Position numbers and translations under genes: made by a program. The notes under the pieces are model-generated. The model had not been told where the DNA came from and did no database searches. It worked only from the letters and a program-made list of their open reading frames with translations. Below are positions 1-60,743 of a stretch of DNA of 64,000 nt, piece by piece. Source of the stretch: Arabidopsis thaliana. Taxonomy: Eukaryota > Streptophyta > Magnoliopsida > Brassicales > Brassicaceae. The DNA lies in NCBI RefSeq assembly GCF_000001735.4, contig NC_003076.8, positions 13,209,835 through 13,273,834 on the forward strand, given 5' to 3'. The stretch's first letter is position 1. The number at the start of each line of letters is the position of its first letter.

Positions 1-2563
1 TGCCTTAGTAGCTCTGTCCTTCTCTACCTGCAAATAAAATTCAAACTGTAAGTTATGTTTTGCATAACAATAATATTCAAGTTTTTAAAAATATATCGTT
101 ATACAAAAGAAGAGTTTAACACTAACCATTATTATCTTGCAGATTTGTTCAGCTAGGTATTTCACTTTTGGATGAGCTCGAGACAGTTTGTCAGGATGAA
201 CGAGTAACGTTGCTTTCTTTAATGCTAATTTGTATTTCTTCTCGTCCCACATTTCCCAAATTTCGACTTTTTGCCATTTACTGTCGGGCCAAAGAATCTG
301 AAATGTAAAAATTCCAAAATGATTAGAATTAAAATCTTTTGCAGCAAAACAATGATGTAAATTAACTTACTTCTTCAAGTGACGATAGTAGATCTCTTAT
401 TAATTTGTTTTTCGCCCATTTTTTAACTTTTAGGTCAATTTCTTCCATTACTTCCTGACTCAACATGACCGGCGTCAAAGGAGTTTGAACTGATACAAAA
501 ACAAAAAAAAAAAATTTAGAAGTTGTTTATCAAGGCAAATCATCTGTGAATGTAAAAAGAACTTACGACTGCTCTGTCCCTGGGTGATTTCTTCTTCTTG
601 CGTAGAGAGTGGTGTTTGATTAACATCTTCATCATCTTTCTTGGTCTCTCTTGGAACCTGTAAACAAAAACATCAACACAAATTTTTATTTTTTGACAAT
701 TTTATCATGTCTTTTAAAACAATTAAGGAATGCAGACCTCTGTTGTTTCTTCTTTTTGAGGTTGTGATTCTTTCTCTGTGGGTGCAGTCCCATTATCTTC
801 ATCATCTGACAAAATTACATATGCTTCTTGATCTTCAGTCTCATCATGTTCATCATGTTCTTCTACGTTTTCTTCTTTTGGAACCTGTATACCAAAACAT
901 CAAAACAAATTTTTATTTTTTGACAATTTTATCATGTCTTTTTAAACAATTAAGGAATGCATACCTCTGTTGTTTCTTCTTTTTGAGGTTGTGATTCTTT
1001 CTCTGTGGGTGCAGTCCCATTATCTTCATTATCTGACAAAATTACATATGCTTCTTGATCTGCAGCATCATTATATTCATTATGTTCTTCTACTTTTTCT
1101 TCTTTTCCTTCTTCTCTTTCCATTTCTTCATCGCCTTGTTTGGGATTCTCTTGTTTTTCTGTTTCTTCAACATTGCAAGTAGAATTTTCATATACCAGTT
1201 TTACCTTCTCACCAAAGGACATTGATTTCCTTTTTCTGCTTTGATGCACAACTGTTTCAATTGCAGGTTTCAAGACATGATCAATTCTTCCTTGATGTCC
1301 TTGTTCCACTTGAATCCATCCCTGACACCAATCCTTCTTGCTCATTCTATATCCTTTGATCACAAGATCAAAAACATCCAACAGATCCTTGTCTTCAGGA
1401 TTCTTCTGTGAAACCAAGTGGTCGTATTCATGAGTATGAACACCAACTATTGGTGTCACTTCAACCTGCAAAGATAAACAAAATTCCAAACTGTGTAAAA
1501 ATAATGCACAATTCTTAATTAACCTTTTAAAATCCGTTGTAAATAGTTTAAATTGCTTTTAACCCTTTGTAAATCCTTAAAACTTGATTGTAAAAACTAT
1601 TGTAAAACATACTCTTTATTTATAAACAGTGTTTAAAACATAAAAAAAGCCACAACTAAGAAAATGTACCTTGTCACCATCTGCTATCATTGTTATAGCT
1701 TTTGCACTTGGAGACGATGTTGATCTCCATTGGAGAATTAATGGAATATTTCCACTAAATGATTCATCTCTAGTGCCAAACTTTTCTCCCAACTTCTGAA
1801 CCGATGATAATGCCCATATCTGAATTGATTGAACAAATCCAAATAGACCATATTGTTTCCTGAACAAATAGTCATTACCGATTCTCTTCACTTCAGTTAC
1901 CAAATATGAGTACACAATCTGCGCCCATGGATACTTACAAAACTTTTCGAAATCAGTAGCTCTCTTCAGATTCTCAATTGGCAGCATGGTAGTGGGATTT
2001 CGAGCTAGCAATATGCCCTCCACTAGTAACAAACCCGCCAATCTCAGTCTCTCCTCTGGCTGCATTTTTTTGGAACGCATTTCCAAAACATATGTAAGAT
2101 CTAAAAAAGTCATTTCCTTGTCAATCCACACATTTTTTTTCTGCTTTCCCTTCAAAGTCTGATTATCTTTTATCCACCACTTTTCTTTCTTCTTTCTCTT
2201 CACATTTGGACTGCTTCCTGATGCATCATCCATTGGAAGTCCTGTTGTTATGATAAACTCTCTCAGGGAGAATCGCATAGGTTGATCAGCAAATACAAAC
2301 CACAATTCGTCATTGTTGGTTAGTATTCTTCTCTGGAGTAAATGATGAACGATATGGCTTGAAAATGCTAAGTCCATTTAAGCGAATTCCACTATAGGAC
2401 CCAAGAATGTGTCCATTAATGTGTTGAACTCTATCGGCTCTAAAGCTTTCCTGACAGTCGAGACAATTTTGAAGGATGAATGCTTTGATACCCTTGTAAT
2501 ATTATCTACTTCGCTGCCTGGTTGGAACAGTCTTTTAGGAAAGAACAGTTTCTTTGTACTCAT
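1..2563 (-). pseudogene. DUF1985 transposon-type gene with auxilin-like J-domain (3' end off window)
   Basis: Exons that keep phase with each other are 1670-2563, 965-1465, 738-884, 567-657, 371-489, 127-297 and 1-27 onward. The first exon encodes a DUF1985 domain ([23 protein letters not shown], later FCKYPW). The middle exons are acidic and Lys/Glu-rich. Exons 5-6 encode an auxilin-type J-domain: a helix-I segment KVKKWAKNKLIRDLL, then SLEEILWPDSKW, then the Hsp70-activating HPDK inside ATLLVHPDKL. DUF1985 is a domain of unknown function common in ULP1-carrying Mutator-like elements of Brassicaceae. An in-frame TAA (2378-2380) follows IVEFA and directly precedes ATG GAC, so the N terminus is broken or translation starts at 2377. 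Helix IV of the J-domain looks weak. The J-domain call is strong; the function of the fusion is unknown. Confidence 0.7.
653..1110. repeat. Tandem exon-intron duplication, two units of about 228 bp
   Basis: 653-880 and 881-1110 are near-identical direct repeats. Each holds an acceptor, an acidic exon encoding EAYVILSD(D/N)[12 protein letters not shown] and the following intron. The upstream copy is fused to a longer exon (965-1465); the other is a separate exon (738-884). Both copies keep the reading frame, so the duplication lengthens the acidic linker between DUF1985 and the J-domain. Confidence 0.85.
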
Positions 2564-2572
2564 ATTTCTCAA

Positions 2573-3410
2573 AACCTGATTAAATACATTAACACAGTCA
2601 TTAAATTAACACAGTTTTGAAATGGTTTTAAAAACCATTTTTGTAAATCTATTATGCATTTGTAGTTTTCGAAACATAAACATAGTCATTACAAGTCGTT
2701 TAAAGAACTTTAAAAACCCTTGTAAAACCATTTTTCAAAGTCATTACAAGTCGTTTTAAGACTTTAAAAACCCTTGTAAAACACAGTCATTACTCCATAA
2801 TCCTTTTTAAAGACCGTTTTGAAACCATTCCAAAAACAAAATTTTAATCCTTTTCAAAGAACACAGCCGCTGAAAATAGAAACAAAAAAAAACCCTTTTC
2901 CAAACCAATTCCAATCAACTGGTAACCCATAAATTAAGTGAGGATCTATAAATTAAAACACAAACCCAAACATCAATCTATTTACTGTTGAAGTTTCAAA
3001 ACGAAAAAACTTTGAAATTGCTACAACAGAGAAGTTAATCGGCATTTGAAATCTTCTTTGAAGGTTTTTGAAACTCAAATATCAAACTTTAAACATAAAT
3101 CTATCAAAATTATATAACAATTTCCAACACTCCTTCAAAATCCCAAATATCAATCTATTTTACTTGTTTCGTTTTCAACCGAAAAACCTAGAAATGCTAG
3201 AACAAAAAAGAGATTCGGCAAAAATTGAACAAACCCAAATGGTAAACTTCAGTTTCGTAAATTAGTTACCTTCAATTGCTTCCTTTTTGCTGTATAATCA
3301 GATTTTCTTCACATTGTTGAAAGGAAGAAGACGAAGACGACAGTTTGTATTCTTCTTTTTTTTTTTTGTTACTTTTTTGTTGTCTTTTCACGGTTCCCTT
3401 CCTTTTTTGT
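2573..3410. other. Upstream region of the J-domain DUF1985 gene; no gene seen
   Basis: AT-rich DNA with several copies of the TTTTAAAA..TTGTAAA motif at 2600-2830 and a pyrimidine-rich stretch near 3330-3400. It is probably promoter and leader of the minus-strand gene, but no clear TATA box was assigned. Confidence 0.4.
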
Positions 3411-4920
3411 TTTTGGGTTATAGTGAATTTTTGGGCTTTAGTGTTTTTTGGGCTTTTAGTGTTTTTTTACTAAAACAGTTTGTTTTTCTAAATAACAGGC
3501 CTAGGCCCAATTAGTAACAGATACAGTGTTTAACATTACTGTAACTTTTTCAACGGTTGATATTCTCTTTTAAAAACGGTTCTAAATCATTTTAAAAACG
3601 GTTGTAAATCTTTTCAAAGTGACTGACCCTAATTCGGTGAAGATGTCAGAAGCCAATTCCTGTTTAATTTGTTTTTAGGTTATAGTGAATTTTTGGGTTT
3701 TAGTGTTTTTTGGGCTTTTAGTGTTTTTTTACTAAAACAGTTTGTTTTTCTAAGTAACCGGCCTAGGCCCAATTAGTAACAGATACAGTGTTTAACATTA
3801 CTGTAACTTTTTCAACGGTTGATATTCTCTTTTAAAAACGGTTGTAAATCATTTTTAAAACGATTGTAAATCTTTTTATAATAGCAGCTACTGCAGCTTT
3901 TTCAACACTTTTAAAACGCTTTTAAAACAGCTTATAATTCATTTAAAAACCCTGTTTAAAAGCATGTTTAAAGTCCTTTTCCATTCAAATCAAAGCACCT
4001 GTTAACCCAAACAACCATTATACAGTAATTTTGTAAAATAGGAGTTAAACTAAATAAACTTCATAAATCTTGTTCCATATAGATGTTCATAAAATATTCA
4101 ATTGACAAAGTTTATAAATCTATCTTGTACTCCACTACTTTTTGATTAGAAGTCTGCTACTTCTACAAAGTGACTGACCCTAATTCGGTGAAGATGTCAG
4201 CAGCCAATCCCTGTTTAATTTGTTTTTACGTTATAGTGAATTTTTGGCTTTAGTGTTTTTTGGGCTTTTAGTTTTTTTTTTTACTAAAACAGTTTGTTTT
4301 TCTAAATAACAGGCCTAGGCCCAATTAGTAACAGATACAGTGTTTAACATTACTGTAACTTTTTCAACGGTTGAAATTCTCTTTTAAAAACGGTTGTAAA
4401 TCATTTTAAAAACGGTTGTAAATCTTTTTATAATAACAGTTACTGCAGCTTTTTCAACACTTTTAAAACGTTTTTAAAACAGCTTATAAATCGTTTGTAA
4501 ATCTCTTTTAAAACGGTTGTAAATCATTTTAAAAACGATTATAAATTTTTTTCATAATAACCGCTACTGCAGCTTTTTCAACACTTTTAAAATCCTTATA
4601 AAGCAGCTTGTAAATCGTTTAAAAACCCTGTTTAAAAGCATGTTTAAAGTCCTTTTCCATTCAAATCAAAGCACCTGTTAACCCAAACAACCATTATACA
4701 GTAATTTTGTAAAACAGGAGTTGAACTAAATAAACTTCATAAATCTTGTTCCATACAGATGTTCATAAAATATTCAAATGACAAAGTTTTATGAAATAAG
4801 AAACAAAAGCTGATAAATCTATCGTATACTCCACTACTTTTTGATTAGAAGTCTGCTACTTCTACAAAGTGACTGACCCTAATTCGGTGTAGATGTCAGC
4901 AGCCAACTTATTCCTAACGT
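3410..4920. repeat. Triplicated 3' end of the ULP1-like gene
   Basis: Three direct copies, about 3410-3665, 3665-4215 and 4215-4920, share the block GGCCTAGGCCCAATTAGTAA (3498, 3760, 4312) and the block GTGACTGACCCTAATTCGGTG (3619, 4170, 4869). The last block contains the final codons and stop of the ULP1-like gene. The gene's tail and 3' flank have therefore been copied in tandem, with internal length changes in runs of TTTTAAAACGGTTGTAAATC. Confidence 0.8.
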
Positions 4921-5560
4921 TTTGAATTATGTTCCCTTCAAGGTTTGAATGGCTGGTATACATTGAGTAGCATTCCATAAACTTCAGCATATAGATACCA
5001 GACTCTTCATTTCTAGGAGCCTACAACCAAAAACCAAAAGAATTACTTAAGAAAAGAAGTTATAGAAGTCAGGACTTACGGAATATTCATTTCTAAGACT
5101 ATGATATATTTAAAGAAGTTACCTGAGGAAAAGTGGTAAGGACTTTGATGCTAAATGGAGAGACATCCATGTCTTCTTTTTTGAGGATGTTCCGAACAAT
5201 GTATGGCATAGCTATAGAGTAGGCAGCAACATATTTTTTCTTGACTTCTTCTGTTAAATAAGAAGCTGCATATTCCCATATACAAACTGTCTTCTGTTCC
5301 AAGTGGATGAGCAAGGCAACCCAGCATTTTCCTTTGATACAAAAAGGAGCCAATATGCACTTGGTTTCTTCCTCTATTATCAGCTTACTGATTTCTTCAG
5401 ACTGAAACTGAAATCCCTCTTTGTTATCCAAAAACTCCATGTATGACTCATCAACCACATTTAAGAAAGACGATCCAACAAATACAACTGATTTGTTTTT
5501 GAATAATTCTGGATTGCTTTCCTTCCTCGTTTTCATCAACTCCAAAGCTGCATCAACATG

Positions 5561-6030
5561 CTAAACACAACAAAAATAAAAATTATCATATTAGAAAACC
5601 CCTTTAAAAACGATTGTAAAAAGTGCAAACCCTTTTTAAAATACCTTGTAAATCATTCTACGCAACATACTTATGCTTTTTAACGATTGTAAATCAAGCT
5701 AAACACTTTTAAAAGCTTTTAAAATCCCTTGTAAATCATTCTATGTCACTAAGTTCTGCTTCTAAACGATTGTTAATCAATTAAACCCTTTTTAATAGCT
5801 TTTAAAAAATCCCTTGTAAATCAATCCTTACCACTTTCTAATCCGTTAAAAACGATTGCAAGTCATGTAAATCCTTTTTAAAATACCTTGTAAATCATTC
5901 TTTACCACTTTCTAATCTTTTAAAATTGTTTATAAACCATGTAACCCTTTTTAAAATCTCTTTGTAAATAACTTAATGATGCTTTAAAAACTATATGTAA
6001 TTCATGGGTTACCAATTTTACAAGGATTTT
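5561..6030. repeat. Intron filled with TTTTAAAA..TTGTAAATC repeats
   Basis: This intron of the ULP1-like gene is almost entirely degenerate copies of a unit resembling AACCCTTTTAAAATACCTTGTAAATC, alternating with AACGATTGTAAATCA. It lies between the exon ending near 6038 and the exon starting at 5560. Confidence 0.7.
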
Positions 6031-8419
6031 TAGACATACCGTTGCTGTTATTGCTTTCCCTGGCGTCTCTAGGGTTGTAAACCACTTTGTATCTACAATA
6101 TTTCCCGCGATTGATAGTGGCCTACAACAACAAAACAGTCAACAATGATGCTTCTTCCATTATTAAAAAAAACTCACTATCTTACTAACAAAACTCACTT
6201 TTTTTTCCTTGACTTCTTCCATTCAGCCAATTTCTCAAGTCTTGTGGCATCAACTTTCGCAAATGGATGCAAAATTGGATGCTTTTTCTTCTCAGCTGTG
6301 AAAGGTGCTTGGGTATGAATGGAAGGAAACGTACCCCGCTAACTCTTTCTTTGCGGAGCGGGCTGAAAATCATCATTGTCGTCATCATTATCAGCGTTAT
6401 CACCATCATTGCCAATAATTTTCCTTTTCTTACTCTGTACCAATCAAAAAGAATAAAAAAAACAGATGTTTAAAATACCTTGTAAACAAAATTTTCAAAA
6501 TCATAATAAATTAGATACTAACCTCTTTCCTTGTTGGAACATCAACATCAGCACTATCAACTTGTTTCTGCCTCTTTCTCGGCACCTAGAATAGTAAAAA
6601 ACACCAATTAAAAGTACTTTTAAAATCCCTTGTAAATATCATAACAAGACAATTGACAAATTTTAAAAACAGTACTGTTGCAAATACTAACCTGTTTTCT
6701 TGTTTTAAGATTATCCTCAGCATGAACACTTGGTTTAACTCTCTTGTTCTGAAGTTGCATGAAAGATAAACTTTTAAAGATTTGAAAAAAATATTATAAA
6801 CACTTGGTTAGATAATACAAATTTTTTAAAATGCTAACCTCATTTCTTCCTCTGCTAGATCTCTTCTTATCCTTTTGAACATCCAAACTTTCTTCAGACA
6901 AAATATTGAAATTTGGTGTAGAGGATCGTGGAGTAGGAGACTTATCCTTGAAAATATAACAGAATGTAAAATTATAAAAAGGATACTAATCATTTTTGTA
7001 AGACTTTTAGAGATATAAATTACTGTACTTTTGATGATTCTTCAGCTACTTCATCACCAACATCACATTGGGTGTTTTCATCATCACCCGGATAGCTCCC
7101 ATACTGTGTGTTTGGCTCTCTGATTGAATCTTCAAATGATTCATTGTCATTCTGCAACAAAATAAAAACAATAAGTCAATCATTAATATAATTAGTAGAC
7201 CTTTAAAATAGCTTGTAAAGATTTTCAATTACCTCTGCTTTTCTTTCTAGTCCTCCTTCTTCTTCAGCCTGCGAAAAAAAAGAGTACATTGTAAAGGTTT
7301 ACTACGTATTTTACCTTTAAAATACATTGTAAAACCTTTCCTTTCAAATAGCTTTTAAAGAAACATTTACAATTACCTCTGGTTGTCTTTCTACTCCTCA
7401 TCTTCTTGTTTTCTTTCTTCATCTTCCTCAGATCTCTGATTATTCTTTTCCTCCATTCTAATGTCCAAAATCCTCTCAATCAGCTCGACTCTCTTGTTAA
7501 GATCTTCAAGGATTGTCAAAATCCTGTCAAGCTTCTCGCTATTAGATATTTTGTTATTGATTTTGTTTTGACCTACTTCTTCAAGGGCAGCACAAACATC
7601 AACACATCTTGTATTCCATTCAGTTTTCTTCAATCTGTAGCCCATCTTAACAAGTTCCAAAACCTGTTGGAATTCTGTGTCGTTTGTGTGGAAATCAGGA
7701 ACTAAAGACTTGAAGTCTTCTGGGTTTCCAATAATTGTATTCACCTCAATCTGCGAAGATACAATAACATTACAAATCTTGAGAAAGCAGAACTTCAAAT
7801 CTCAAAACCATTTAAAGAATTCTGTAAATAGACAAAAGCTTACCTCATAAACATCATTTACAAGGTTTACGATCTTGAAAAACTCTGGAGTAGTAGTGCT
7901 TTTCCACTTCAATATCAATGGATATTCAGATTGGAATTCCTTATCTTTAACTCCAAATGCTGCACCAAATGCTGGAACTGCGCTCAACACCCATATTGTT
8001 AGCGCGAGTCCAAATCCTCTCAAATCATATTTCTCTTTTGCCCAAGTTTTCTCGTCCATTCTCAGAATTGAATTTGATAGAACACTGAATGCTTCTTTAC
8101 CCCACGGTTGGGCTGTGTACATCTCAAAATCAGAAGCATGCCGCAATCTTGGCAAAGGTATCTTCTCTTTTCCATATGGTGTCAAGAGAATTCCTTCAGT
8201 CAACACTACTGCAGCAAGACACAACTTTTCTTCATCTTCAACAGCAGGTTCACCTTCCTTAGGTTTTAAAAACAATCGATCTTCGAGATCACCAAGAGTA
8301 TAAGATCCTTTACTAGCCCAAAAGTATGGTTCTTTTACAGGATCTTTCCCCTTTCGTCGAAGTTCCCTATGAACAGGTTCACATTGAATTCCTGTATGAA
8401 CAAAAGACAGTGTAGAGAC

Positions 8420-9187
8420 TATTATTACAGGTTTTATAGTAAATACTTTAAAAACGATTGTAAATCATGTTTAACACTTTTAAAAGCTTTTAAAATCCCT
8501 TATAAATCATTCAATGCCACTTACTTATGCTTTAAAAACGATTGTAAACCATGCAGACACTTTTAAAATCCCTTGTAAATCATTATATGACACTTACTTA
8601 TGCTTTAAAAACGATTGTAAATCATGTTTAACCTTTCTAAAAGCTTTTAAAATCTCTTGTAAGTCATTCTATTCAACTTACTTATGCTTAAAAAACGATT
8701 GTAAATCATGTTTAACCCTTAGAAAAGGTTTTAAAATCCCTTGTAAATATTCTATGCCACTTACTTATGTTTTAAAATCGATTGTAAACTATGCAAACAC
8801 TTCTAAAATCCCTTGTAAATCGTTTTAAGACACTTACTTATGCTTTTAAAATCCCTTGTAAACGTGTTTAACACTTCTTTAAGCTTTTAAAATCCCTTGT
8901 AAATTATTCTATGCTAGTTACTTATGCCTAAAAACGGTTGTAAACCATGCATACCCTTTTTAAAATCCCTTGTAAATCATTATCTGCCACTAACTTATGC
9001 TTCTTAAACGATTGTTAATGAAGTAAACCCCTTTTAAAAGCTTTTAAAATCCCTTGTAAATTATCTATGACACTTACTTATGTTTTAAAAACGATTGTAA
9101 ACTACGCAAACAGTTATGCAAATGCCTTGTAAATCATTCTACGACAGTTAATTAAGCTTTAAAAACGATTGTAAAACTTTATTACCT
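8420..9187. repeat. Intronic satellite of the DUF1985-ULP1 gene
   Basis: A 0.77-kb intron made of about seven tandem units of roughly 100-120 bp. Each holds CACTTACTTATGC, TTTAAAAACGATTGTAAA and TTTTAAAATCCCTTGTAAATC. The unit is clear near 8515, 8590, 8675, 8757, 8830, 8915, 8990 and 9065. It splits the DUF1985 domain between exons 1 and 2. Confidence 0.8.
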
Positions 9188-9554
9188 GTTGTGAGATAGA
9201 ACTCTCTCAAGGAGAAACGGATAGGTTGAGAATCAACTCTAAACCAAAGAGTTGATCCTTTTGTTTTCACTCTCTGCTGCATGAGATAGTGAAAGATTTT
9301 TCCAGAAAATCTGATTCCCTTCTTAGCCTTCATTTTTGGTCCCAATTCAACTAGAAGACCAAGAAACGAACTTCTAATCTTCTGAAATAAACACTCGCCT
9401 AAAGCTTCCTCTACTTTACTAACTAAATTCCAATCCGAGTATTGTTGAACGGTTCCCAGTGCAATAGATTCTTCACCTTCTATGTATATCTGTTCAGGCA
9501 ATGTAAGGATTTCACTCTCTGAATCCATCTGCAAAACATGTTATGAAACATCGT

Positions 9555-9606
9555 CAGATCTACTATAAAATCGACTATAAAATCGACTATAAAATCGATT
9601 ATAAAA
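9555..9606. repeat. ACTATAAAATCG short tandem repeat
   Basis: Four near-perfect 12-bp units (ACTATAAAATCG) just upstream of the DUF1985-ULP1 start codon, in the presumed leader or first intron. Confidence 0.75.
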
Positions 9607-9687
9607 ACGGTTACCGTCGGATCTATCGATATCTCTGGGGATTGTTTGCGTCGTAGAGAAATGATCTGAATCCTTCAGCGAATCCTT

Positions 9688-9882
9688 CGGAGAGGAAATT
9701 CGTCGGCGATTTTGGGGTTTCTCAGAGAGAAAATTCGTCGGCAATTTTGAGTGAAATCGGAGAGGAAATTCGTTGGCGATTTTGAGTGAAATCGGAGAGG
9801 AAATTCGTCGGCGATTTTGAGTCAAAACGGAGAGGAAATTCGCCGGCGATTTTGAGTGAAATCGGAGAGGAAAATCGGAGAG
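9688..9882. repeat. 35-bp tandem repeat in the leader of the DUF1985-ULP1 gene
   Basis: Five units of about 34-36 bp with the core GGAGAGGAAATTCGTCGGCG followed by ATTTTGAGTGAAATC. They lie upstream of the minus-strand gene and are probably transcribed leader. Open reading through the repeat (minus strand) gives a repetitive Arg/Phe/Pro peptide that I do not regard as a protein. Confidence 0.8.
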
Positions 9883-10030
9883 GAAAACGAAGAAGTTTGT
9901 GAAACGAATGTGAAACCTAATCATTCAGTAAGGGTAAGACAGTCATTTGCCATATTAGAAGGGGTAGTTTTAAAAATAGCCTTCAGGAAAAGGCATTTTT
10001 ACAAAAGGTTATTAGAATAAGGGAAATTTT

Positions 10031-10065
10031 GCAAATCTCCCTTCTTATATTGAAGGGAGATTTGC
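10031..10065. repeat. Abutting MULE termini around a 9-bp target duplication
   Basis: GCAAATCTCCCTT (10031-10043) and AAGGGAGATTTGC (10053-10065) form a perfect 13-bp inverted repeat around the 9-bp spacer CTTATATTG. Nine bp is the standard Mutator-family target-site duplication. The left arm reads as the end of the element carrying the DUF1985-ULP1 gene, and the right arm as the start of the small element at 10053-11064. Confidence 0.65.
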
Positions 10066-15232: not shown

Positions 15233-15481
15233 ATGGCTAAATTTAACTCTCAGATTACTACGCTATTCATTGTTGTAGCTTTGGTGTGTGCATTTGTTCC
15301 AGCTTTCTCAGTCGAAAAAGCTGAAGCAAATTTATTGTGGAATAATTGTCTTGTTAAAATCACTCCTAAGTGTGCGTTAGATATAATTGCTGCTGTCTTC
15401 GAAAATGGAACAATGTCTGATCCTTGTTTGCAGAGATTACTTAGAGATATAAGCTACTCATCGAGTGTTTGTAGAGATTGA
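15233..15481 (+). pseudogene. DUF784 / ECA1-like copy 3, truncated by an insertion
   Basis: The first 64 codons match copy 2 up to SDPC. From about 15425 the sequence switches to unrelated DNA beginning TGTTTGCAGAG and the frame ends after a short foreign tail at 15481. The four C-terminal cysteines or their partners are lost. The missing 3' half is not found elsewhere in the window. Confidence 0.85.
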
Positions 15482-16219
15482 TTCAGATCTTAATACAGTG
15501 AAGAGATCCCTTCTTTCCCTTAATCTATTTGCAGTGTTTATGTTTTCATACTCAAATATGTTGTTTGCTTCATTCAATATGTTTGAGTAATCTGCTTGTT
15601 AGGAATAAAGTTTCTCATTAGGGATTCATATGGTTTAGTAGATTGTCCCATTTGCTAGGTTATTTGTAGAATTCTTCATCTTTAATTCTGTTTAATGCTA
15701 GATCTAGAGTAATTAACTAGATCTTGAATCCAGATAATAGATATGCCCGTTATAGGTATCTGTAGTTGGATCTATTATTTGATGAACCTGGTTTTTAGGT
15801 GTGTAATAAGAATCGGCTTAGCTACTAAGGTGAACAATCGAACTCGTTAAGAATGCATATTTAGGTTGATAATTTCTCGGTTTCTCCGGTTATTCTTAGC
15901 TATAGATATAGGGAGTTTCGCGGAACGCCACCGGTTATTCCATAATTAGAGTATGAGTTTAAGAATGATTCGATAACAACCTAGCTTTCATTAGATCTAC
16001 TAACCAATAGTTTCCTGAGAATACCCTGTTCCTACCTCTTTTCCTAATCGTTTACAACACAATCAACCTGTTGTTTTCTTACTATTTTAATCATCACCTG
16101 CTAGCTTAATCTCGATATTCAACTCACTGTTTGAACAAAAAAACTCCGTGAATTCGATCCTAAAATACTGCAATTGATCTCTTATTTGAGAGAGTATTTC
16201 TAGGTAATTTGAACCATAT
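15425..16219 (+). mobile_element. LTR-like fragment (probable Ty3/gypsy LTR)
   Basis: Non-coding. It begins TGTTTGCAG and ends ...CCATATCA. The last 80 bp (ATTCGATCCTAAAATACTGC, then TTATTTGAGAGAGTATTT) resemble the 3' ends of Athila/Tat-type LTRs. No matching second LTR, primer site or target duplication was found. It could be a solo or truncated LTR. Confidence 0.35.
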
Positions 16220-17208
16220 CATTCATACAGATGGCAAAGGGAACCCTTTTGGCCTTGGATCGCTTATGGAGACACTGAACAAAAGAAGAAGGAAAGAGAG
16301 TTATGCGAGCTCTTCTACATCAACTGTTGCGCAGCTTCAAGAGCAGCTGCATCTCAAGATATTTGAACTAGAGGAGCAAAATGCAAAACGTAATGAGGAG
16401 AACCACCAATCTCAATCTCGGATAGCCAGCTTGGAGAAGCTCGTCCTCTTCATGAAAGAAAAAGATCCTGAGTTGGCTGCTTATTTGTCAACTGATTCTA
16501 CTGAACCTGAACCAGAAACACATCCAACCACCACAACTCCATCCACACTTCCAACCCCCACAACCACCGCACCAGCCATCATAGTTGCAGGCACCACACC
16601 CTTAGTCTCCACTTCAGCTACTATTTCGAACACTTCTTCTAACCATTAAACTTGATCTTTTGTTGCTTTTGTTGTTTTTGTTGAAACTTGTTTAGGAGTT
16701 GTATGACTATGATTTTCTGAATGTAAACATAATTAGTGTCTTATTGTTAACATGATTAGGGATTATTGGCTTTTGAATCGATATTAATCTGGTTTATCAT
16801 TCCAAACATAAGACCAATTTGGTGACTAAACCAAAACAATACATGTGACTAATTTGTGACCAAACCAATTATATAACTATGACCACTTTGTGACCAAACT
16901 TGTTCAAAATATGTGACAATAATGTAACTATTTTGCGACTACATTGTAATGTATGTACCTAAGTGTACATCGTTGCAGTTTAGTCGCATATCTGCCACAT
17001 CTTGATATCGTCACAAATCAGTCGCTTATTTACGACTAACTCTTTGTGTCCAAAATTTGTCGCTTATAAGCGACCAATTTGGGACTGAAATATTTTGCGA
17101 CGGTTTTTTAGCGACCGTTTAATATCATCGTTAAGTAGTCGTAAACACCTAGTTTGCGACCATTTTGGGACCAATATGGAAGTTGCAAATGGCAGGTTTT
17201 CTTGTAGT
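16220..17208 (+). mobile_element. 3' part of a CACTA (En/Spm) element
   Basis: It holds one exon of a Ptta/En/Spm-type protein (16231-16649; GLGSLMETLNKRRRKE, then a heptad coiled coil and a Thr/Pro-rich tail). Subterminal DNA follows, crowded with GTGAC/GCGAC repeats (16800-17190). The end GGCAGGTTTTCTTGTAGT is the inverse of the family terminus ACTACAAGAAAACCTGCC. The 5' part is missing. Confidence 0.75.
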
Positions 17209-49489: not shown

Positions 49490-51181
49490 ATGGCTGGGAA
49501 TAAAGCTAACGACGAAGTCCCGAGGAAGCAGCATGGTCAAAGGAAGGAGAAGCGGGTATTAAGAGTTTCCCCGCGGAGAAAACGCTCTGCAACAAAGGCA
49601 ACGGAGGAACTGGGTTAGAATCTCTAATTTACCGTTTGTTGTCTTTGGGTGTATCAGAATTGTAAAGCTTGTTTGATTAAAGGGTTAGAACTTGTCGGAA
49701 TTTAGCATATCTTTAGGATGAAAAATTGAGAAGTAGAATTGGAAATCTCTGTTTCCGCCAAAAATATGATTTTGAGTTATAATCTGGAAAATGTCTGTGT
49801 ACGTACACTACTTCGGTTTGCTTAACAGTATATGACTTTTAGTTGCAGGTAGTCCAAGTGTTGCTCCGACTGAAGATCTTACAGTTGAAGAGTTACCACC
49901 AAGACTCTTTGCTCTACACCGGTACCCTTCCGAGACGAAGATGAACGCGTACTCTAAACCGGAGTACATTTCTGACATAGAAAATGTACTAAAGGGGAAA
50001 CCAGAGATGCAGTTTCTTCTCGATTCTCCATTTGGGGAACTTTTTAAAATACCCCAAAACAAGGCATCTTTCAATGCTAAGCTTGTCCTTGGACTAATAT
50101 GCCGTCAGTTAGTGACAAAGAAGGTGAATGAGATGTGGATTGTATTCGGCGGTCATCCAATTAGATTTGGATTAAGAGAATTTAGTATCCTAACTGGGCT
50201 GGAATGTGGGAAGTATCCCAAGAAGAAAGACGTTGATGATGTTATCAATGTGAAACCTGAGTGTGAGAGTGTTTGGAATACTCTGTTTGATGAGAGGTTT
50301 GGGGACACGGTTCCAACAATTGCTGATTTGGTGAGCTGGCTGCAGGAGGAGGAAAGCATGGAGGGGTGGAAGCAACTGGCACTATCTCTTATTATTTTGG
50401 TTGACGGTGTGGTAGCGGCCCACAGTAACCCCAACAGGCCTACTTCGAAGACTGTCGAGATGACTAAGAACCTGAAGTTCTTCTGCAAATACCCATGGGG
50501 AAGGGTGTCCTTTACCCGTACTTTGGGGAGGATAGCAAATTTCCAAACTCCTTACGATGCTCAACAACTAATAAGGGATTTACTTGTAGGGTCTTATGCA
50601 CTCCATGGCTTCCCATTAGCTCTCCAGCTTTTAGCTTTCGAAACAATCCCATCAATTGCTAAGCTAGGACCTGATGATGTACTTAACAGGACATTTGCTG
50701 AGAGGTCTATCCATCGTCTTGCCTCTCTGCGAGCAATCCGGACATCTCGCATTTTGGAGTGTGAGGCTGCTGATGAGGTGTGTTAAATTGTGTATGTACG
50801 TACATAATAAGTAAATGTACATTATCTATGGTTAACATACTTATTTGTGTAGGTTGAGGTCAACTATATTGTGAAACCAGCTGATAATGTTTGTCCTCCA
50901 TCTCTTTCATGGGATGATGAAGTTGATGATCCAAGGGTTGATTACATTGAGGCACTGTTGATAGATGGGCACCAGTGGCAGGAGGATGAATGGGTTGGAG
51001 GCTATGCTAGAGTACCAAAGCAGGTGCGCCCACCACAACTAGAAGAGACAGGTAAGTATAAGTATAAAGGTTGTTTACAAATTTTTTTGGTATTGCATCC
51101 AGAAGAAACCCAATTAATAGCAGCAACTGGTCTATTGTAGATGTTAAGAGAAAACGAAATGCACCGGGCCCGAGCCCTAAA

Positions 51182-58145: not shown

Positions 58146-60743
58146 TCAAGTGATGAGGTCGAGTATATATTCCTCCCTTGCTCTTTCACCCAAATCTTCA
58201 TACTCTCCTGGATTCTCAACTGCTTTGTGTTCATCTAACAGCTTTTGGTACCCCAAAATCTCCAAATTTAAATCTCCTTCCTTGCTATCCTTTGTTAGAG
58301 CACTCTGTAGATGATCTGTTTCTCCCAGCTCTTCTAGCATTTCGTCAGCTAACATATCCATCTCTTCAATCCAGAAAATATTTCTTTCTATCGTAGGCTT
58401 CTTCATGGTGTTGGTGATATCGAAGGTCATCTTGAGATCTCTCCCGAGGTTAAGATCAATTTTTCCCTTCTTAACATCAATGATAGCTCCAACTGTAACT
58501 AAAAATGGTCTTCCCAATATCAAAGGGTCTTTGGGTTCTTCATCCATTTCTAAAACCACAAAGTCTGTCGGTACTTCGACCATGCCTATCATGACTGGTA
58601 AGTCCTCCAGCAGACCATGGGGAATCCTAACAGATCTGTCAGCTAGGATCAAGGATATATTGCAGGGCTTGTACTTGTTGAAGCCCAGTTTCTTTGCCAC
58701 AGAGAGAGGCATGAGACTCACAGATGCACCTAGATCACAGAGGCACTTGTTGAAGGCTAAAGGGCCTAGAGCGCAAGGTAAGGTGAAGGAACCAGGATCT
58801 CCTAGTTTTTTTGGAATGATCTTCTGCTGAATGATCGCACTGCATTCGTGACTTAGCACCACCATTCCTTGGACTTCTTTGATCCTCTCTGTAATCATGT
58901 CTTTCACATATTTGTTAGAGTCTGGTATAAGTGCAAGACAGTCGACAAGAGGCATCGTGACTTCAAGATTTTTCAATTGTTTCTCCAGGAGAGCTTTGTA
59001 CTTCTGTATCATGACCTTCTTGAATCGACCAGGAAATGGGAGTGGGGGCTTGTAAGGTGGGGGAACGAAGACGTTGTCTTTGGTTTTGGTGGCAGCTGGT
59101 TTTTCAACAAGAGGAGATGCTGCAGGAGCTAGTAGTCGAGTAGGTTGGTCGAGTATAGGCTCTTCTATTGCTTTTTCAGCGGAATTTCCATTTTGACAGA
59201 AATCCTCCCCATCTTGATCCACACTGTCCTCAGTGTTCTGGTTCGGGCTCTCTTTTGTGGGTAATTCTTTACCGCTTCTAAGTGTGATAGCATGAGCGTA
59301 CTCCTCTGAATTTGACATTGATTTTCTGGAAGGTCCTGTAAATTTGGGTGCTGCGGTCGACCCAGTTTGGCCTTCTATGTATCTAATCTTAGATGTCAGT
59401 GCTTCAACCTTGATATTGATATCATTGTAACTGCAGTCAACCTTGTTGTGAATTTCTGCCATCCTTTTGGACAGATCCATTGCTCCTGTTGCTTGCCCTT
59501 GTAGAATCTGCTGTAACATGTTCTTCAGGTCTGAATCTGGAGTTGTTGAAGCTGGTTGTTGTTGCTGCTGTGTGAACCCAGGTGGTGGAAGTTGCGGCTG
59601 ATAGTTGCCCTGATACTGCTGCTTAGGAACATACCCTTGACCTTGGTTGTATGGAACAAAGGGCCTGGGTTGATTCTGCTGCTGTGAAGGGTAAACTTGG
59701 TCCTGCGGGTTTGCAACGTTTGTACTTCTGTAAGACAGATTGGGATGGTTCTGCTTGAAGTTGTTGAAACCTTTGTTGTAACCTCCTTGGTTCTGCACAT
59801 AACTGACCTCTTCTGACTGCATAGTCTCCCCATCCTGAACTTGGAACGTCTCATCATCACCCAGAAAATGAATGTGCTTCTGTTGCACAAGCAGTAGCTT
59901 GTCCAGTTTGTCATTCATGGCTTTCATTTCCCTGCGGTGCTTCTCATCAGAATCAGAGCTGGTGCGGACGCTTCTATCATAATCTTCATTATAGTTGCCA
60001 TCCGACTGAGCTAAGTTCTCTACCAGCTCCCATCCGTCTTCAACGTCTTTGTTGAGAAAGTTCCCGTTAGAAGCGGTATCTAGAAGCATCCTGATCTTTG
60101 GGAGGACACCTCTGTAGAGAGTGCTGAGAAGCGAAGCTTTGGAGAAACCATGATGAGGACATTGCGTCTGATAACCTTTGAAGCGCTCCCATGCTTCACA
60201 GAAAGTCTCATTATTCGTCTGAGTGAAACCGGAGATATCATTCCTTAGTCTCGCAGTCCTGGAGTTTGAGAAAAACTTAGCCAAGAAGGCTTTCTTGCAG
60301 TCATTCCAGGAGGTGATAGAGCCTTGAAGAAGCGACTTTTCCCACTGATGGGCTTTGTCTCCAAGAGAGAAAGGAAACAATCTGAGCTTGAAGCCATCCT
60401 CACTGACTCCATTGATCTTTGTTAGGCTGCAGAGCCTATCAAACTCGTCCAGGTGATCGAGTGGATCCTCCATAGGGAGGCCGTGGAACTTGTTGCTCTG
60501 AACCATGGCAATGAGACCGCTCTTGATCTCAAAGTTGTTGTTCTGCACAGGTGGAGGCACGATGCCATTACGCTGATTGTGGTTGCGTGGTGCATCGCCT
60601 GCACCTATGTTGTTTGGTTGCACCTGCTCATCAACAACTGCAGCCATTGTGTCTGTTTCTGTCTGTGTTCTGAGTTGGCGTGCAATACGGTCGATGTTAT
60701 CGTTGAACAGGAGATTCTGATTTCCTCGTGACCGTGTTTGCAT
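58146..60743 (-). CDS. gag: Athila gag-protease
   Basis: 865 aa from ATG 60743. The Gag core includes [20 protein letters not shown] and the W-ER-F-G-Q region typical of retrotransposon gag. A Gln-rich stretch lies in the middle with no CCHC knuckle, as is usual for Athila. An aspartic protease near the C terminus carries [19 protein letters not shown]. The frame ends in TGA (58146-58148) exactly in frame with pol. The linker around the stop is built of GGTCGAGT/ACTCGACC units; the stop sits where that motif would read ACTCGACC. Confidence 0.88.

Follow-up and report, generated by a model that had tools for sequence, protein, structure and literature searches.

The closest described relatives of the element reported here are the Kaonashi (KI) elements with their KIU gene (Hoen et al. 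2006, as presented in the available parts of PMC13317346 and PMC6117577). In these accounts they are non-TIR Mutator-like elements (MULEs) with a MuDR-type transposase and a gene that joins DUF1985 to an Ulp1-like domain; they have three genes, of which KIU is one (PMC13317346, in the part available), and they occur in many Arabidopsis copies. Our element resembles them in all of these respects. It is unlike Kaonashi in two ways: the catalytic triad is missing from its Ulp1-like domain, and it has another gene whose product has a C-terminal J-domain and contains repeats that look like SUMO-interacting motifs (SIM-like repeats).

According to the accessible text of PMC5735166, VANC of the VANDAL elements is likewise a DUF1985 protein of a non-TIR MULE, it has tandem peptide repeats in its variable region, and it causes sequence-specific hypomethylation. 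The protein described here shares the DUF1985 and the tandem repeats. Unlike VANC, it has a C-terminal J-domain, and its DUF1985 is distant from the presumed VANC sequences that we compared. Pfam reported no DUF287, a domain of VANC, in the pieces that were scanned. The J-domain itself is similar to those of the auxilin-like J-proteins (e.g. PDB 3ag7, which we take to be JAC1) in its type, in its HPD tripeptide and in two intron positions. It differs from them by an identity of 29-39%, by two two-residue gaps and by another C-terminal tail, and the rest of the protein, i.e. DUF1985 and repeats, is foreign to them. Finally, the J-domain of polyomavirus T antigen employs Hsc70 to break repressor complexes. 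Here the likeness is one of principle alone, namely that a selfish element's J-domain would turn Hsp70 on host repressors.

The window, i.e. the whole stretch of 64,000 nucleotides that was analysed, corresponds to C5:13209835-13273834 of Arabidopsis thaliana; negative coordinates refer to the neighbouring contig sequence left of position 1. The gene in question, called the J gene below, lies on the minus strand, and its seven exons run from 2563 leftward past the window edge. Exon 1 (2563-1670) encodes the N-terminus and DUF1985 (Pfam PF09331, E 6e-21, 75 bits against a cut-off of 35.1), a domain whose predicted structure has a mean pLDDT of 43.7. Exon 2 (1465-965) carries the first DUF1299 or SIM-like repeat, and the counterparts of this region in other copies hold additional acidic/lysine-rich repeat exons. 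Exon 3 (884-738) carries the second DUF1299 repeat, with the SIM-like core YVILSDDED; exon 4 (657-567), delimited by the gene model and by splice comparison among copies, is a linker. The J-domain follows, its helix I (KVKKWAKNKLIRDLLSSLEE) in exon 5 (489-371) and its remainder, including HPDK, in exon 6 (297-127). Exon 7 begins at 27 and ends at -20 with the stop codon; the part within the window (1-27) reads VEKDRATKA, and 21 bases lie beyond the edge. The order of the product is accordingly DUF1985, two DUF1299 repeats, linker and C-terminal J-domain.

All internal splice borders of this model are GT-AG and the reading frame is continuous throughout, with the exception of one premature stop codon in exon 1 of the window copy, which was missed in the preliminary description of this DNA. 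That description had placed three in-phase J exons (our exons 4 to 6) downstream of a DUF1985. The Pfam score given above bears out the DUF1985, the exon borders and phases agree, and both introns (567/489 and 371/297) are reproduced exactly. On its predicted exons, the locus is a minus-strand gene that joins DUF1985, SIM-like repeats and an auxilin-type J-domain.

The assignment of the J-domain relies on sequence comparisons. In a phmmer search against PDB sequences the best match was 3ag7 from Arabidopsis (E 4.3e-14), followed by the auxilins 1xi5 and 1nz6 (about 1e-7), and six of the seven matches at E 1 or better were auxilin-type J-domains. A translated search of the genome (119.7 Mb, 7 contigs) returned 13 close copies, with 80-97% identity over exon 6, and eight other host places with 29-39% identity (E 3e-7 to 1.4e-3). 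We take the latter, by their positions, to be auxilin-like genes. The J-domain of PDB 3ag7 is encoded at C1:28191244, the letters being identical from NIDAK to ELLQ. The HPD tripeptide between helices II and III is present in 11 of the 13 J copies, including that of the window, and the remaining two have HPN and HRD. The auxilin-type J-domain of the preliminary description is upheld by these matches, which are, as scored, beyond chance. The profile check that had been proposed along with it gave a divided answer. DUF1985 was recovered, as stated above, and Pfam DnaJ failed to report the window sequence and gave 12.4 bits to the J-domain of another copy (cut-off 27.8). However, three host auxilin-like J-domains also score below this cut-off (21.3, 23.3 and 23.7 bits), so we set Pfam DnaJ aside as a judge of this domain.

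The intron positions add to this picture. In the host genes, the exon with helix I mostly ends in LLSTLQY and the next exon starts with (I/V)LWP or ILG; the second J exon ends in DMLK, DLLK or ELLQ and is followed by EAWNKF. The transposon J-domain is split at LLSSLEE|ILWP and at KIIM|VEKD, both in phase 0. In other words, two intron positions and their phases are common to the transposon J-domain and the host auxilin-like genes, which argues that host exons were captured. The EAWNKF ending has been replaced by a different C-terminal tail, and the two two-residue gaps mentioned above separate the transposon J from the host J-domains. No donor is singled out by a tree of seven host J-domains (the eighth matched place, C4:17225306, was left out), in which the transposon J branch measures 1.59 changes per site. 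The preliminary description had suggested that a host J exon set was captured by a Mutator-like element. With matching introns and phases, and with the MuDR-type transposase and 9-bp target-site duplication described next, such a capture from a host gene is well supported.

The J gene sits within a 14.7 kb non-TIR Mutator-like element of the Kaonashi/VANDAL kind. By alignment with a chromosome 2 copy, positions 1-10041 of the window belong to it, and the remainder, which includes the transposase gene, reaches to -4682. The two copies are co-linear from -4682 to about 10041, with ~93-98% identity in the main blocks. A 9-bp target-site duplication, TTCTTATAT, is perfect at both ends of the window element (right copy at 10042-10050, plus strand; left copy at -4691 to -4683). 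No terminal inverted repeats were seen when both ends of the element were read by eye, and no target-site duplication was recognised at the chromosome 2 copy, the sole other copy whose ends were read. The transposase to the left of the J gene is of the MuDR type (PF10551, MULE, E 1.5e-17; PF03108, MuDR DNA-binding domain, E 3.3e-10; SWIM, 7.7e-9). Its frame has 363 residues in the window copy. Eight other family members have frames of 507-555 residues, and in two of these eight the match contains stops. A mudrA-type transposase, encoded on the opposite strand, is the neighbour of 12 of the 13 J genes. To the right of the J gene, the same element contains a DUF1985 gene with an Ulp1/C48 domain, called the sibling gene below.

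Several further features lie in or near the element. A hairpin that resembles the MIR2933 precursor (9765-9876, plus strand; Rfam RF03984, 123.4 bits) is found upstream of the sibling gene. MIR2933 has 15 matches above the Rfam cut-off in the genome, of which 12 lie no more than ~17 kb from a J copy and a further two adjoin DUF1985 frames resembling that of the sibling gene. From the placement of these matches, the annotated microRNA family MIR2933 is a part of the J-carrying transposon family. The element also has tandem repeats of ~290-310 bp, each consisting of an acidic repeat exon and an intron, and short repeats like CGATTGTAAATC are abundant in its non-coding parts and are reminiscent of the arrays of tandem motifs in VANC targets. 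Elsewhere in the window there are a separate DUF1985 frame of 316 residues (49836-50783, plus strand) that falls in a different branch of the DUF1985 tree, and the plant snoRNA R71 (60145-60251, plus strand).

The repeats encoded by exons 2 and 3 belong to DUF1299 (PF06975; the frame that contains the first repeat has E 1e-26). Genome-wide there are 32 DUF1299 matches: 31 are beside J copies and the remaining one is at an older copy of the family, on C2 at 4.37 Mb. Pfam DUF1299 (735-1084 of the window, minus strand) therefore appears to be confined to the repeat of this transposon family, and no mention of it was found in the open-licence PMC literature. Eleven of the 13 J copies have two or three repeats; the remaining two have a single one. 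In 26 of the 27 repeats inspected the SIM-like core is present, as AYVILSDDEDN, as AYINLSDDEDN or in a closely similar form. This core resembles SUMO-interacting motifs, for instance the one in Daxx, and by motif likeness we regard the DUF1299 repeats as putative SUMO-interacting motifs.

The sibling gene encodes its DUF1985 at 7391-9540 (minus strand) in two exons (9540-9148 and 8464-7802) and an open segment (7801-7391); scored apart, the two Pfam pieces reach 31.8 and 26.4 bits, i.e. they stay under the cut-off of 35.1. The Ulp1/C48 domain follows in two exons at 4862-5560 (minus strand; Pfam PF02902, E 1.4e-25), and a phmmer search of the C48 exon against PDB gave no match. It is conspicuous that all three catalytic residues are changed, H to C, D to E and C to S: the domain reads GKCWVALL ... 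CIWEYAAS (CIWECAAS in others) ... NEESGIY, as against HW ... D ... DCG in active enzymes. The catalytic positions are C, E and S in all eight sibling copies whose fetched stretch contains C48, counted by alignment with the changed letters not being required; a ninth stretch was examined and has no C48 domain. The loss of the triad is probably ancestral to the copies, because it is common to every sibling copy read. The first C48 exon is open and full-length in four of the eight, has a stop in one and is frameshifted in three.

This loss is not general among related genes. Of five further C48 domains linked to DUF1985, four retain His-Asp-Cys, as does one probable host C48; in the fifth (C1:7357), His and Asp are unchanged but Ser stands in place of Cys. 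Dead Ulp1 domains may thus recur in such elements, the C1:7357 family having lost the Cys alone. The sibling gene resembles KIU in combining DUF1985 and C48, and departs from it in the His-Asp-Cys peptidase residues. An Ulp1-like gene that is devoid of the His-Asp-Cys triad in eight out of eight copies is a new observation here, as is the probable paralogy described next, and judging from these residues the SUMO-protease-like protein looks catalytically dead.

The J gene and the sibling gene are related. Their DUF1985 domains match each other with 137 bits, as compared to 87 bits or less for the other sequences in the comparison, and a tree of 19 DUF1985 sequences pairs them with a support of 86/84, both branches being long enough to cause a program warning. 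The J gene does not group with VANC21 and VANC6, which lie far off in this tree; these two loci are presumed ones, as we assigned them by coordinates. Given the score and the pairing, we regard the J gene as a probable old paralogue of the element's Ulp1-type gene, the J-domain taking the place of the protease. The wider distribution is as follows. At least 150 DUF1985 profile matches were scored (150 of 297 candidates, some being pieces of one locus); at least 73 of the 150 are followed on their own strand by a C48 at a distance of up to 7 kb, nine have the J-domain, 68 have neither and none has both. Conversely, C48 lies within 12 kb upstream on the same strand of 12 of the 13 J copies, a DUF1985 of the same family is upstream of at least nine of the 13 among the matches listed, and pieces of it are upstream of two more.

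We tentatively propose that the J gene encodes a transposon anti-silencing factor that acts by chaperone-driven disassembly, a reading that we hold for quite possible and by no means certain. Three precedents are available: the hypomethylation caused by VANC; the J-domain protein SLN, which takes part in host silencing at methylated DNA and needs for its activity the HPD motif, through which HSP70 is contacted (PMC10651127, in the part available); and the Cdc48 chaperone, which disassembles sumoylated centromeres according to the title of a paper cited in PMC9770095. Taken together, they make an anti-silencing protein the likeliest reading. The placement of the J protein, its binding of SUMO, its action on HSP70 and its effect on silencing, all of which we infer, would be connected as follows. 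DUF1985 would bring the protein to the chromatin of the element, in analogy to VANC, or to the sibling protein; the YVILSDDED repeats would hold on to SUMO on silencing complexes; and the J-domain would trigger the HSP70 of the host, so that the complexes are pulled off or kept from forming. With HSP70 the element would achieve an effect for which its relatives may rely on an active Ulp1 protease.

A bolder version, possible in our opinion but rather doubtful, is that the family traded enzymatic deSUMOylation for chaperone disassembly, with a dead Ulp1 partner and a J paralogue serving as a SUMO-targeted Hsp70 co-chaperone. The preliminary description had raised the possibility of chaperone recruitment in the place of deSUMOylation. 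This idea gains unexpected support from the Ulp1-like sibling, in which none of the three catalytic residues is left. In its literal form it does not stand: the J-domain did not supplant Ulp1 within one gene, but resides in a second DUF1985 gene of the element, separate from the Ulp1-like one.

Another explanation would see the J exons as a passenger, i.e. a transduplicated host fragment that, if translated at all, has no function. Transduplication is reportedly common in plants (PMC2572040, in the part available), and the condition of the copies speaks for this view. Exons 4-7 are without internal stops or frameshifts in seven of the 13 copies (one of them without a terminal stop), two of the others are frameshifted and four have internal stops. 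Exon 1 has a stop in three of the nine copies read, the window copy among them, and the repeat exons have lesions in every copy read through them, although the gene model is uncertain there. For the J part, dN/dS amounts to 0.91 when all 13 copies are compared (78 pairs) and to 1.70 among the seven in-frame copies (21 pairs), so no recent purifying selection was detected among the 13 copies; in 12 comparisons against the most diverged copy the uncorrected ratio is 0.49-0.91. We considered dN/dS as proof of J function and rejected it, the values of 0.91 and 1.70 being unsupportive. This looks like post-insertion decay and gives no proof of selection.

On the other hand, the J-domain has diverged to 29-39% identity with the host, yet exons 4-7 are in frame in seven of 13 copies, HPD is kept in 11, and all 13 have intact splice dinucleotides at the seven sites that run from the acceptor of exon 4 to that of exon 7. 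When a 60-codon host J exon was allowed to decay neutrally to 40% identity in 2000 simulations, 212 sequences remained stop-free, 98 kept HPD and just seven did both. These simulations, which cover one exon, make an indirect case for past selection on the J-domain, and they render a mere passenger unlikely in our view.

Copies elsewhere add to the history of the family. At the older copy on C2 at 4.37 Mb the match ceases at exon 5, and we considered this break as a date of capture. It was rejected, because the break is due to the insertion of a nested, LTR-retrotransposon-like repeat, which leaves this copy uninformative on the timing. The repeat has an RT-like frame by eye and 41 further matches, and we presume it to be of the LTR retrotransposon class; window positions 15443-16221 are 88% identical to it. 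Besides this copy, two copies of the family on C3 are without the J part, at least one of them owing to an internal deletion.

It is also conceivable, if a little harder to accept, that the J protein is an HSP70 decoy which would weaken HSP70-dependent silencing without involving SUMO, either by competing with the host J-protein SILENZIO or by entering MBD5/6 assemblies. The host MBD5/6 complex does operate through the J-protein SLN and HSP70 (PMC10651127 and PMC9770095, in the parts available), and the retention of HPD in 11 of the 13 J-domains would fit. Against a decoy, genome and PDB matches place the J-domain in the auxilin type, and a decoy would account neither for the SIM-like repeats nor for the apparently dead Ulp1 sibling.

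A role in transposition itself seems to us improbable. ClpX remodels the phage Mu transposase-DNA complex after strand transfer, and the J-domain could similarly recruit HSP70 to remodel or disassemble the element's transposase-DNA complex at this step. In 12 of the 13 copies the J gene does have its element's transposase gene as a neighbour, but many other related transposases and DUF1985 matches have no J-domain nearby in the J search (E 1 or better). Lastly, that the J exons are a separate gene which just happens to sit downstream of a DUF1985 gene is highly improbable in spite of the in-frame ATG codons within exon 5, because the phases agree across the model and the splice dinucleotides are intact in all 13 copies, and introns 3 to 6 have only 73 to 99 bases each.

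The preliminary description knew of no earlier account of this fusion. We also found no description of a DUF1985–J-domain protein in the open-licence PMC literature, part of which consisted of titles or abstract openings, nor did we find anything there that brings auxilin, Mutator-like, Arabidopsis and transposon together.

The anti-silencing reading of the J gene points to transposon counter-silencing by recruitment of the host Hsp70 machine, a strategy that is undescribed as far as we searched. It suggests that the J protein may pull silencing complexes apart rather than cut SUMO off. Since methylation-dependent silencing in the host relies on a J-protein together with HSP70, host and transposon may be contesting the same machinery. 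Moreover, why such elements carry SUMO-protease-like genes becomes a testable question.
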